From positions 1-14,287 of the forward strand of contig UZAE01001254.1 in the NCBI GenBank assembly GCA_900617975.1: DNA of 14,287 bases. Reading direction: 5' to 3'. A program made the translations under genes and the position numbers. Shown piece by piece: positions 1 through 14,131 of this stretch. The first letter of the stretch is position 1, and every line of letters starts with the position of its first letter. Source of the DNA: Rodentolepis nana. Lineage: Eukaryota; Platyhelminthes; Cestoda; Cyclophyllidea; Hymenolepididae. The notes beneath the pieces were generated by a model. It had not been told where the DNA came from, did not search any database, and saw only the letters and a list, made by a program, of their open reading frames with translations.

Positions 1-535
1 TTAGCGTGTCTTCAATTTCCTTTCCAGCTATGTTTGTATCCTTGTGGCCCCATCTGGTGGAGTGGGCGTTGAAGTCTCCTAGTACTATAGTTTTGTGTGA
101 GATGTTCAGAATGTCAAAGTTTGGACAATTCTGGGGAGGATTATAGACTGCATATATCTTGAATTGGTTTTGACATTTCCAAACATTTAATCTGATTATT
201 TCACATTTGTCTTGTGTCGAGCCCATACTCTTGATTAGATCATAGTGTGAGGTGAGGCCTTCTTTTACTCCAGTTAGAATTCCACTTGCAACTTGCCGGT
301 ATTTAGGTAGATTGTACAGAGTGTAACCTGGGAATTGGTAGTACTTCAGTTTGTCATCCGAAATGTTAGCTTCCATAATTGTGAAAATGTCTACATCATA
401 CGTTTGTAGGATTTTCTGTACTTGGATCTTTTAGTCCGGAGACATTCCTCCAGCATTCCACTGGAGGATCTGAAGACGTAGTGATTCGCCCTGACGAGGG
501 CGATTTTTCTTATAGCCTTTTTTAAAGCTAATCAT
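1..535 (-). pseudogene. LINE endonuclease (EEP/APE-type) domain, partial, one in-frame stop
   Basis: The minus-strand reading frame starts at ATG 535-533, just after an in-frame TGA at 550-548, and runs 178 codons to the window edge. It encodes the N-terminal endonuclease/exonuclease/phosphatase domain that nicks target DNA for target-primed reverse transcription. Visible motifs are LQWNAGG (Asn27), FTIMEAN (Glu55), IYAVYNPP (Tyr131, Asn132) and IVLGDFNAHSTRWGH (Asp154, Asn156), which match the metal-binding and catalytic blocks of LINE endonucleases. A TAA at 433-431 replaces codon 35, directly after GGMSPD, and breaks the protein; the other 143 codons are open, so decay is mild. The reverse transcriptase lies outside the window. 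In my recollection the closest relatives are abundant spider LINE proteins. Confidence 0.92.
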
Positions 536-568
536 AATAAATCGAAGTCAAAAACGAATACCGAGTGA

Positions 569-639
569 TAGACTTTTTTGCCGTAAGAAAATACGTTGCC
601 CAGGGTGCACCACGTGGAGGTAAGTCTATCGCGCACCCC
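569..639 (-). ncRNA. HDV-like self-cleaving ribozyme, LINE 5' end (copy 1)
   Basis: The minus-strand RNA folds as a nested double pseudoknot. P1 is GGGGUGC with GCACCCU, 7 bp including the 5' G-U wobble typical of this ribozyme class. J1/2 is GCGA and P2 is UAGACUU with AAGUCUA. P3 is ACC with GGU around the loop UCCACGU, whose CC can pair with GG of the joining strand UGGGCAA (P1.1). P4 is CGUA with UACG. The J4/2 strand GGCAAAA carries the expected catalytic C, opposite plus-strand base 580. This copy has the best P1 in the window. Cleavage is predicted just 5' of base 639, releasing a LINE RNA that begins with GGGG. The fold was made by eye; activity is inferred. Confidence 0.85.
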
Positions 640-2822: not shown

Positions 2823-3149
2823 GGGGGTGTGCGATAGACTTACCTCCACGTGGTGCACCCTGAGCAACGTATACTCATACGGCAAAAAAGTCTATTAACT
2901 GACAGTTGACTTCTGACTTCAAACCACCACGACCCCCCTGGTTGTCATATTCGACCACTTACACAGTACTCATCTTCCTTTTTTCTCTACATTTGTGTCT
3001 GTATGCCTCTTTTATATCTGTGAATCGCTCTTCTGTTCCCCACCCCTCGAATTTATTCTATTTTGATGAACCTTCCTTCTGTGAATCCCGAAGTTAGTTA
3101 AATGGCTAATGATAGCTATCAAAGCGCCTGTCATTTGAAATAAATAAAT
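2823..3149 (+). mobile_element. Ribozyme-headed non-autonomous retroelement, complete copy (copy 2)
   Basis: This 327-bp insertion is bounded by a perfect 12-bp target-site duplication. In order it contains the HDV-like ribozyme (2824-2894), a short stretch resembling the LINE leader (TTGACTTC), a pyrimidine-rich body of about 170 nt without coding potential, and a 3' terminus ending GCCTGTCATTTGAAATAAATAAAT. The 3' terminus matches the end of the LINE fragment at 11268-11338, including CCC..GGC and TGATAGCTATCA inverted repeats. It encodes no protein, so its mobilisation presumably depends on LINE enzymes recognising that tail. I see no Pol III A or B box, which argues against a tRNA-type SINE. 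Copies at 11394, 11728, 13572 and 13891 share the body. Confidence 0.9.
2824..2894 (+). ncRNA. HDV-like self-cleaving ribozyme (copy 2)
   Basis: Helices match copy 1. P1 is GGGGUGU with GCACCCU (7 bp, wobbles at both ends) and P2 is UAGACUU with AAGUCUA (perfect). P3 is ACC with GGU around UCCACGU. P4 is CGUAU with AUACG and loop ACUC. The J4/2 strand GGCAAAA has the candidate catalytic C at 2883. The joining strand reads UGAGCAAC rather than UGGGCAAC, so one P1.1 pair is lost and activity may be reduced. The flanking insertion starts one G upstream of the predicted cleavage site. Confidence 0.82.
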
Positions 3150-10324: not shown

Positions 10325-10427
10325 GATCATAATAATTTGAAGTCAAATGCCGGTTATAGACTTTTTTGCGTACAAAGTATACGTTGTCCAGGATGCTCCA
10401 CGTGGAGGTAAGTCTATTGTGCACCTG
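10325..10427 (-). mobile_element. Inverted LINE 5' end (second copy)
   Basis: On the minus strand the ribozyme-like segment (10427 to 10357) is followed by 26 nt and then ATG at 10330-10328 in the context TTATTATGATCAGCT. Copy 1 has TTATTATGATTAGCT after its 33-nt leader, so both are the same LINE leader and start codon. Shared leader words are CGG.ATT and TTGACTTC. Similarity to the LINE stops right after the AGCT. Confidence 0.72.
10357..10427 (-). ncRNA. HDV-like ribozyme, degraded (copy 3)
   Basis: P2 (UAGACUU with AAGUCUA) is intact, the UCCACGU loop is kept, and the candidate catalytic C remains opposite plus-strand base 10368. P1 has decayed to CAGGUGC opposite GCAUCCU, with only about five pairs and none at the cleavage site. 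P3 has an A-A mismatch, and the joining strand reads UGGACAAC. It is most likely inactive. Confidence 0.68.
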
Positions 10428-10474: not shown

Positions 10475-10673
10475 CGAGAGGGGGGGGGGGACAGAAGTGT
10501 TTCAAAGCCAGAAAAAAGGTGAGGTGAGTACTATGGAAGTGGTGGAATATGACATACAGTGGGGTGATGGTAGTTAGAAGTCAGAAGTCAACTGCAAGTT
10601 AATAGACTTTTTTGTCGTATGAGTATACGTTGCCCAGGGTGCACCATGTGGAGGTAAGTCTATCGCACACCCC
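10475..10673 (-). mobile_element. Ribozyme-headed short element, 3'-truncated (copy 4)
   Basis: On the minus strand the ribozyme is followed by the same body as the other short copies: TTGACTTCTGACTTC, then CCCCACTGTATGTCATATTC, CACTTCCATAGTACTCACC and the C-rich run. Similarity stops in the TCTCGA at 10475, so the last 110 or so nt, including the tail, are missing. Loss of the 3' end is unusual for target-primed insertion, which starts at the 3' end; it suggests a recombination or inversion product. Its first base, 10673, directly abuts the forward LINE fragment at 10674. Confidence 0.8.
10603..10673 (-). ncRNA. HDV-like self-cleaving ribozyme (copy 4)
   Basis: P1 GGGGUGU with GCACCCU, P2 UAGACUU with AAGUCUA, P3 ACC with GGU, joining strand UGGGCAAC and P4 CGUAU with AUACG are all complete. 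The loop of P3 is UCCACAU (G to A compared with the other copies) and J4/2 is ACAAAA in place of GCAAAA, keeping the candidate catalytic C opposite base 10614. Structurally this is one of the best-preserved copies. Confidence 0.82.
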
Positions 10674-11267
10674 AAAGAGAGAGAGCCACCCAAAACAGCT
10701 GAGATATACGAATGTAAAAAACTATATCAGCTTCTGAGAGAAAAAAACAAAGCAGAGGTTCTACACTGGATTCCTGAACACTGTAGCATTAAAGGCAACG
10801 AGCGTGCTACGCGCTTGCTGAGAATGGGACTACAATTTCGCAAGGCATAGATCGGTTGATGTCTTTCCATACAATGAAGACAATATGGACCGGGGTCTTC
10901 CCACACAATGAAGGCCTTAATCAGAAAAGAATTCCCGACCTCAATGTGCAACGAAATTAAAGCTCGAAAGAGAATTCAAGACCTCAAGGTACAACGAACT
11001 TAAAGCTCTAGCAAAGGAGAAACAGTGGACAGTGGCACTTTCTGACATAAACGATTGGCCAAGAATCGAAGCCGTTGCTTGGTGCTTCACGATTGCTTGG
11101 TGAAGCACCTTCACAGAATAGGAATATACACTCAACTAACATGCCCCCTATGTGACCTACAGGAGGAAATGGAGAAGAGCCACCTGATTTGGTGTCCAGC
11201 CCCAAAGACAACGACGGAAAGCCAGAGATACTGGGAAGCCAGAAGACAACTAATGAACTGCTGTTAA
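10674..11267 (+). pseudogene. LINE RNase H end and C-terminal zinc-binding region, frameshifted
   Basis: The first segment, about 10686-10826, reads PPKTAEIYECKKLYQLL and then WIPEHCSIKGNERA, the last conserved block of RNase H. The Asp expected after NERA is Thr, so a catalytic residue is lost. Near 10826 the frame shifts and continues as TTISQGIDRLMSFHTMK. Further shifts and a 43-bp tandem duplication (10928-11013) follow, then EKQWTVALSDINDWPRIEAVA and, after another shift near 11080, HDCLVKHLHRIGIYTQ, CPLCDLQEEMEKSHLIWCP (Cys-X2-Cys-X9-His-X3-Cys) and QRYWEARRQLM, with a stop at 11265-11267. It is the C-terminal end of the LINE protein, nonfunctional here, and resembles abundant spider elements. 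Confidence 0.9.
10928..11013 (+). repeat. 43-bp imperfect tandem duplication inside the LINE fragment
   Basis: The unit starting AGAATTCCCGACCTCAATG at 10928 is repeated as AGAATTCAAGACCTCAAGG at 10971, with most positions matching across 43 bases. Because 43 is not a multiple of three, it changes the reading frame. Divergence between units suggests an old duplication. Confidence 0.75.
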
Positions 11268-11338
11268 TTAACTGTTATGTATGCTCCCTGTCAATAAGGG
11301 GCTAACGATAATATCATGAAGCCTGTCAATTGAAATAA
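11268..11338 (+). mobile_element. LINE 3' untranslated end and tail
   Basis: Only about 70 nt separate the stop codon from the end of the element. It contains a CTCCC..AAGGGG inverted repeat, then GGCTAACGATAATATCATG, GCCTGTCAATTGAAAT and an (AAT)n tail. The short elements in this window end with the same series of motifs, with an (AAAT)n tail. The two hairpins plus tail are the probable recognition site for the LINE reverse transcriptase, by analogy with LINEs that need a 3' stem-loop. Confidence 0.75.
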
Positions 11339-11344
11339 TAATAA

Positions 11345-11393: not shown

Positions 11394-11447
11394 GGGGTGC
11401 ACGATAGATATGTCTCCACGCGGTGCACTCTGTGCAAAGTATACTCA
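11394..11447 (+). ncRNA. Truncated HDV-like ribozyme (copy 5)
   Basis: The 5' side survives: P1 GGGGUGC with GCACUCU, and the P3 loop region UCCACGC. The 3' strand of P4, the catalytic C and the 3' strand of P2 are deleted, so it cannot cleave. Confidence 0.7.
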
Positions 11448-11727: not shown

Positions 11728-11798
11728 GGGGTGTGCGATAGACCTACCTCCACGTGGTGCACCCTGGGCAACGTATACTCATACGACAAAAAAGTCTA
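11728..11798 (+). ncRNA. HDV-like self-cleaving ribozyme (copy 6)
   Basis: P1 GGGGUGU with GCACCCU, P3 ACC with GGU around UCCACGU, joining strand UGGGCAAC and P4 CGUAU with AUACG are complete. P2 has one C-A mismatch (UAGACCU with AAGUCUA). J4/2 is ACAAAA with the candidate catalytic C at 11787. The target-site duplication ends at 11727, one base before G1. Confidence 0.84.
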
Positions 11799-12037
11799 TA
11801 AACCGGCAGTTGACTTCTCACTTCAAACTACCATCACCTCACTATATGTCATATTCGACTACTTCCACAGTATTCACCGCACCTTTTTTCTACCTTTGTG
11901 TCTGTGTCTTTTTCATCGTTGAAATACTCTTCTGTCCCTCCCCCTCGACTTTCACTTTGATTTTTCTTTTCATCTATGAAGCCTGAAGTCCACTAAAGGG
12001 CTAATGATAACTATCAAAACGCCTGCCATTTGATATA
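11728..12037 (+). mobile_element. Ribozyme-headed non-autonomous retroelement, complete copy (copy 6)
   Basis: A 310-bp insertion with a perfect 14-bp target-site duplication. Order: ribozyme (11728-11798), AACCGGCAGTTGACTTC leader-like stretch, pyrimidine-rich body, then GAAGCCTGAAG..AAAGGGCT and TGATAACTATCA, the shared 3' end GCCTGCCATTTGATATAAAT. The tail is very short. Open frames across it have no recognisable motifs and are interrupted in the sister copies, so I treat it as non-coding. Confidence 0.9.
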
Positions 12038-12051
12038 AATTTAGGACTTCA
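12038..12051. repeat. Target-site duplication, right, of the 11728-12037 element
   Basis: Exact 14-base repeat of 11714-11727. The boundary with the A-rich tail may be off by a few bases because the duplication begins with AA. Confidence 0.9.
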
Positions 12052-13571: not shown

Positions 13572-13641
13572 AGGGTGTGCTATAGACTTACCTTTACGTG
13601 ATACACCCTGGGCAACGTATACTCATACGGCAAAAAGTCTA
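13572..13641 (+). ncRNA. HDV-like ribozyme, altered (copy 7)
   Basis: P1 is AGGGUGU with ACACCCU, seven Watson-Crick pairs in which both ends differ from the other copies yet still pair. P2 and P4 are intact and the candidate catalytic C is at 13631. The P3 loop reads UUUACGU and the 3' strand of P3 GAU, weakening P3 and P1.1, so activity is doubtful. J4/2 is one A shorter than in the other copies. Confidence 0.75.
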
Positions 13642-13890
13642 TTAACCGGTAGTTGACTTCTGACTTCAAACTAACATGAAATTATGTCATATTCAACCAC
13701 TTCTATAGTAATTATCTTACATTTTCTCTGCCTTTGTGTCTGCCTGACTCTTTCACAGCTGTCAATCATTATTCTGTCCCTCCTCTCGACTTTCTGTTAC
13801 TTTGATGTTCCTTTTCCTCTCTGTGAAGCCCGAAGTCAACTAAAGGGCTAATAATAACTATCATAAAGCCTGCCATTTGAAATAAATAAA
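13572..13890 (+). mobile_element. Ribozyme-headed non-autonomous retroelement, 5'-complete (copy 7)
   Basis: It starts AGGGTGTGC and runs through the ribozyme, the AACCGGTAGTTGACTTC stretch, the pyrimidine-rich body, GAAGCCCGAAG..AAAGGGCT and the tail GCCATTTGAAATAAATAAA. The next base begins another, 5'-truncated copy, so its own right-hand target-site duplication cannot be seen, and I find no matching duplication around the pair. Confidence 0.88.
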
Positions 13891-14131
13891 CTTCTGACTT
13901 CAAACTACCATCACCCCACTGTATGTCATATTCCGCCATTTAAGCAGATTTAGTCTTACCTTTTACTCAACATTTGTGCCTGTCTGTCTCTTACATCTTT
14001 GAAACACTCTCCTGTTCTCCCCTCTCGAATTTTTGCCACTTTAATGTTCCCTCCCCCTCCTCTGTAAAGCCTGAAGTCAGCTAAAGGGCTAATGAAATCT
14101 ATCAAAACGCCTGCCAATTGAAATAAATAAA
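13891..14131 (+). mobile_element. 5'-truncated short element in tandem (copy 8)
   Basis: It begins CTTCTGACTTCAAACTACC, corresponding to position 13658 of the copy just upstream, so the ribozyme and first 80-odd bases are absent. Body, AAAGCCTGAAG..AAAGGGCT and GCCAATTGAAATAAATAAAT end follow. Joining directly to the tail of copy 7 without spacer suggests a template jump or insertion into the A-rich tail. Confidence 0.85.

Follow-up and report, generated by a model that had tools for sequence, protein, structure and literature searches.

A 2011 paper in JBC reportedly described HDV-like ribozymes in non-LTR elements. Among the systems closest to the one analyzed here, L1Tc is given in the accessible part of PMC4035085 as a LINE with endonuclease, RT and RNase H, with a 5' ribozyme that is also found on the short derivatives NARTc and SIDER. 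R2 SIDEs are short, internally deleted elements that keep the ribozyme and the 3' end (PMC3414825, accessible part). In the accessible part of PMC3774820, most of the R2 ribozymes tested, that of planarian R2 among them, cut upstream of the junction, and cleavage at the element 5' end is given for R4, Dong, baggins, L1Tc and RTE. Since that source includes a planarian R2 ribozyme, flatworms were already known to have HDV-like ribozymes.

The window (the whole stretch of DNA analyzed, 14,287 nt) contains a tapeworm LINE and a SINE-like element, both headed by a 71-nt unit. Trypanosomatid L1Tc/ingi with NARTc, RIME and SIDER (Pr77) likewise have, as far as the accessible sources go, a 5' ribozyme on a LINE and on its short derivatives, and the LINE domains agree (endonuclease, RT, RNase H), a likeness of domains alone. 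The hosts of L1Tc and NARTc are trypanosomatids, whereas the present elements are from a tapeworm and the middle of the SINE is unmatched in 13 LINE loci. In R2 and the Drosophila R2 SIDEs an HDV-like ribozyme likewise sets the 5' end, and short ribozyme-bearing derivatives occur (same sources). However, R2 is 28S-specific, whereas the 5' flanks of the tapeworm copies are mutually unrelated and the LINE endonuclease is APE-type (PF14529); and G1 of the tapeworm elements, the predicted cut, is the junction, unlike the upstream cuts of most tested R2 ribozymes (PMC3774820, accessible part). No title on a ribozyme-headed LINE or SINE of tapeworms was found in a partial search of the openly licensed literature. 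Ribozyme-headed LINEs with short derivatives are already known; what appears to be new is a very abundant tapeworm example, and not the kind of ribozyme. To the retroelements that apparently use an HDV-like ribozyme for their 5' end, it adds one LINE family from a tapeworm together with an abundant SINE-like partner.

The 71-nt units and their predicted fold

Seven 71-nt units, members of repeat families, are present on both strands of the window, with all coordinates and strands as in the earlier note (Table 1). An HDV-like ribozyme is the best reading of these units, but not of all seven. For copy 1 the predicted P1 is GGGGUGC/GCACCCU with a G1-U pair, followed by J1/2 (GCGA), P2 (UAGACUU/AAGUCUA), P3 (ACC/GGU) with L3 (UCCACGU), P1.1 (CC/GG) and then GCAA, P4 (CGUA/UACG) and J4/2 (GCAAAA). 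A strict double-pseudoknot descriptor (P1, P2, P3, P1.1 and P4 in standard order), composed after the units had been seen, matched 2 of the 7 copies (569-639 and 10603-10673, both minus) and nothing in 60 dinucleotide-shuffled windows. The pseudoknot-aware check was therefore positive for these two copies and negative for the remaining five, and the claim of the earlier note that the unit fits every element of the fold holds strictly for the same two. To speak of seven self-cleaving ribozymes was an overstatement, because the copies at 10357, 11394 and 13572 are degraded. The copy at 11394 is without the P4 3' strand, the J4/2 (catalytic) cytosine and the P2 3' strand; four P4 breaks of the copy at 10357 in the alignment disappear on a one-base shift, and four P2 breaks of the copy at 13572 stem from a single missing base in an A-run. 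The P2 segments of copy 1 form a 9-bp helix, which was equalled by 8 of 100,000 shuffles of their letters; as the Rfam models leave P2 unpaired, P2 is an independent test of the fold.

Table 1. Features of the window, with positions in nt.
Feature	Position	Strand	Remarks
LINE body	1..568	-	ends at contig end; 33-nt leader after candidate ribozyme; ATG at 535
LINE endonuclease frame	430-2	-	PF14529, E 6.1e-8
Candidate ribozyme, copy 1	569..639	-	LINE type; matches strict descriptor; G1 = 639 = 5' end of LINE copy
Candidate ribozyme, copy 2	2824..2894	+	single P1.1 mismatch; heads SINE-like element
SINE-like element	2824..3148	+	315 nt to conserved tail end, plus AATAAATAAAT
Candidate ribozyme, copy 3	10357..10427	-	degraded in P1 and P3 (three broken P1/P3 pairs)
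Partial SINE-like copy	~10503 to 10673	-	headed by copy 4
Candidate ribozyme, copy 4	10603..10673	-	SINE type; matches strict descriptor
LINE 3' remnant	10680..11340	+	RNase H/C-terminal region, 52% identity to R. nana P0012; SINE-shared 3' tail
Candidate ribozyme, copy 5	11394..11447	+	truncated; heads degenerate SINE-like copy
Candidate ribozyme, copy 6	11728..11798	+	one P2 mismatch
Complete SINE-like element	11728..12043	+	target-site duplication ATTTAGGACTTCA abuts G1
Candidate ribozyme, copy 7	13572..13641	+	A at position 1, P3 mismatch; SINE-like element to ~13890
Second SINE-like unit, ribozyme-less	13890..14131	+	head-to-tail behind the 13572 element

In covariance-model searches RF02682 (HDV-F-prausnitzii) was the best match, and 6 of the 7 window copies were found with 20.5-41.4 bits (E-values of 6.8e-5 to 8e-4 for four copies; two weak, 0.28 and 4.6), none of the six exceeding the gathering score of 44 bits. 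The copy at 11394-11447 had no Rfam match in the window search. RF00094 matched four window copies (31.8-39.7 bits, E 0.0072 to 0.23), all under its gathering score of 50, and no Rfam family passed its gathering score in the window. For the window's genome (G000; 107 Mb, 4,701 contigs), 61 of 25,212 candidates were scored with RF02682; 59 matched at E <= 0.001, and 37 of these exceeded the gathering score. A covariance-model hit above threshold, proposed earlier as a check, was thus obtained in the genome but not in the window itself. RF02682 gave no matches in 14 well-known control genomes; those of them that are named are prokaryotes, which makes the comparison with a tapeworm a weak one. 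At E <= 0.001, RF00094 matched nothing in G000, and nothing in the controls either. The letters of P3, L3 and J1.1/4 are near the RF02682 consensus, whereas those of P1 and P4 differ, the model P1 is two bases off for most copies, and the family is named for a bacterial ribozyme.

C75 and the G1-U pair have roles in the cleavage reaction of HDV-like ribozymes. In a structural alignment of 67 distinct copies, the J4/2 cytosine (C75 position) was present in 64 and G1-U at the predicted cleavage site in 61. One natural copy (L047) has A in place of the J4/2 cytosine. Standard pairs made up 92.2% of pair cells, vs. 28-48% for slid structures and 92.4% for shuffled columns, and 1 pair was changed on both sides (shuffled mean 2.2). 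As shuffled columns pair equally well and both-side changes do not exceed those of the shuffles, there is no covariation support within the family. The copies look recent, largely decayed and too alike, so this result speaks neither for nor against selection on the fold. With the pair that closes the P4 loop set aside, the alignment shows 22 of the 67 free of lesions and 45 with a broken pair or without C75. Indels throw copies out of register, so that the first count is a minimum and the second is inflated.

The 5' boundary, the LINE and the SINE-like element

Both the LINE and the ~315-nt SINE-like element begin exactly with the 71-nt unit. Boundaries were analyzed in 89 of 108 copies (19 were left out because the match began late, the score was low or the flank was short). 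Information was 0.12 bits at -1 and 1.95 bits at +1, and mean identity was 0.30 over the 40 nt upstream of G1 and 0.92 over the 40 nt downstream; upstream flanks were >60% alike in four pairs, three of them among TA repeats. As copies were selected by matches starting near G1, this comparison is informative for the drop in identity upstream of G1, not for the likeness downstream. Of the 28 copies with a recognized 3' tail, 15 had a duplication of 11-18 nt that ended at G1 or no more than two bases from it (re-paired flanks: mean 0.76, maximum 4 of 28), and the other 13 had no clear duplication. Of 11 LINE copies examined, 8 had a tail in the available sequence; 7 of these had a duplication (mean for mismatched pairs 0.39), which in two cases lay in TA repeats. 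The unrelated upstream flanks and the duplications at G1 make G1, the predicted cleavage site, the inserted end.

The unit lies upstream of the LINE endonuclease match in all 30 loci examined (the best 30 of 150 loci that were scored out of 985 candidates), at 204-217 nt and at 209 nt in 21 of them. With the G1 boundary and the duplications, this supports the reading in the earlier note that the unit heads a LINE and its short derivatives. The first ATG after the unit was at nucleotide 105 in 5 of 6 LINE copies and at 104 in one (33 and 32 nt past the unit), so that the candidate ribozyme is about two thirds of the leader. The window copy of the LINE has an in-frame TAA at 433-431 and runs off the contig. 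In the protein of one LINE copy PF14529 and PF03372 passed their cut-offs, and the beginning of an RT fell just short (29.3 bits, cut-off 29.6); in another (L055:1384-3024, contig C4530) an internal deletion puts the endonuclease (PF14529) and the RNase H (PF00075; 53 bits, cut-off 25.8) into a single 547-aa frame. The eight LINE copies that have both ends measured 0.74-2.6 kb and were deletion-shortened or contained N runs. PDB matches (LINE-1 ORF2p, another RT chain and R2) were of low similarity and gave no clade placement. The features of the R2 clade, a restriction-like endonuclease and a 28S rDNA target, were not found: the endonuclease is APE-type (PF14529/PF03372) and the target flanks are mutually unrelated.

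The LINE had been called chelicerate-type, which did not stand, as its proteins and COX1 point to a tapeworm. Identity of the LINE proteins was 57-90% to Rodentolepis nana (best match 81% over 72% of the query) and 63-74% to Hymenolepis microstoma, vs. 25-39% for three named spider matches. COX1 (contig C1797, flatworm code) had an unnamed protein as nearest match (89%), followed by Pseudanoplocephala crawfordi (86%) and Cloacotaenia, Fimbriaria and Taenia (84%). A chelicerate origin was ruled out by these matches; the host is a cyclophyllidean tapeworm and, from the same proteins, probably a hymenolepidid.

The SINE-like element (~315 nt) consists of the candidate ribozyme, a ~40-nt stretch like the LINE leader, a middle part and a tail shared with the LINE that ends in AATAAAT repeats. 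The element at 2824..3148 has the target duplication ATGTTTCATTGT on both sides and an extra G ahead of G1. Identity between the LINE 3' tail and four SINE tails was 81-84% over 45-57 nt. Across 13 LINE loci, the middle (~113-244) matched nothing apart from three SINE copies that lie inside them. Internal deletion alone therefore does not derive the SINE from the LINE parts seen, and derivation of its middle from the LINE was rejected on these 13 loci. Between the LINE consensus (40 copies) and the SINE consensus (23 copies), the ribozyme portion differs at 5 of 72 positions and the following 37 columns at 16 of 37. The low divergence of the ribozyme portion would fit selection on a ribozyme, for which one comparison is weak evidence. 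A tRNA search of the window found none and a box B search of three SINE-like elements gave no match, and a tRNA-headed SINE was rejected on these results; one box A-like match was found, in 1 of the 3 elements scanned. Two further arrangements were observed. In a hybrid 320-nt element (L023:1501-1820) a LINE-type unit and leader are followed by the body and tail of the SINE type, and at another locus (L041, contig C2274) a SINE-like element lies directly behind a LINE copy with the same target sequence flanking both, which suggests a nested insertion at one site.

Proposed mechanism and alternative explanations

The best explanation as a whole, which we hold to be highly probable, is that the predicted HDV-like ribozyme cuts before G1 and so sets the 5' ends of LINE and SINE RNA. 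Self-cleavage by the 71-nt RNA is predicted from its sequence. Transcription would be driven by a promoter that lies at the insertion site or upstream of it, the nascent RNA would fold into the nested double pseudoknot during transcription and cut itself just before G1, and the 5' end of the cut RNA would be the exact element end. The LINE protein would then copy LINE RNA and, in trans, SINE RNA from the shared 3' tail into a new site by target-primed reverse transcription. As the ribozyme would be copied along with the element, every full-length insertion could process read-through transcripts.

The exact coincidence of G1 with the inserted 5' end and the retention of the J4/2 cytosine (64 of 67 distinct copies) speak against an alternative in which self-cleavage is weak or absent and the unit is a relic of an HDV fold, or a 5' RNA structure kept for 5'-end binding by the RT, for the start of translation or as an internal DNA promoter of the Pr77 sort. 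Lesions in many copies and the lack of covariation are in keeping with that reading, as are the L1Tc stretch that doubles as promoter and ribozyme (PMC4035085, accessible part) and the ATG that follows the unit at 33 nt in 5 of 6 copies and at 32 nt in one; we consider it improbable. An ordinary SINE, with a head derived from a small RNA, an internal pol III promoter and a chance likeness to HDV, would have the size (~315 nt), the copy number and the LINE-shared 3' tail seen here, and the single box A-like match in 1 of 3 elements would suit it. However, the window has no tRNA and no Rfam family above gathering score, box B is absent from the three elements scanned, and the LINE carries this head at its 5' end too in 30/30 loci (best 30 of 150); together with the RF02682 matches in the genome, the strict descriptor and the P2 shuffle test, these make chance likeness very improbable indeed.

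If self-cleavage by the HDV-like ribozyme is as predicted, the SINE would spread by cutting itself out of read-through transcripts, which suggests how a SINE may manage without a pol III promoter of its own. The chances are about even that this is a dominant animal SINE family in which a ribozyme head replaces the pol III promoter and the middle does not come from the partner LINE.

Copies across the genome

The 107-Mb genome has 7,712 exact matches to the 19-nt core (3,432 + 4,280, tandem arrays included) and 0 to the reversed pattern. The SINE-type 71-nt sequence was found 3,623 times with <= 3 mismatches and the LINE-type 71-nt sequence 138 times (control 0 for each), two sets that may overlap by a few copies. 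Core patterns had 0 exact matches in prokaryotic and viral contig collections and one SINE-like element had 0 matches in phages, which says little, as these collections hold prokaryotes and viruses. With about 3,600 copies near the consensus and 7,700 core matches in 107 Mb, the units would, if they are ribozymes, rank among the largest families of HDV-like ribozymes known. Thousands of natural copies with visible lesions could show whether the copies in which the ribozyme is intact are also those with precise 5' ends and the greater copy success. A ~39-41-nt unit that spans L3 to P4 of the ribozyme core is tandemly repeated at L002:2652-2941 and L008:1429-1546, and likewise in G000 at C20:53445-54260 (14 exact core matches) and C26:47159-47809; these arrays possibly arose from template switching or slippage at the folded ribozyme.
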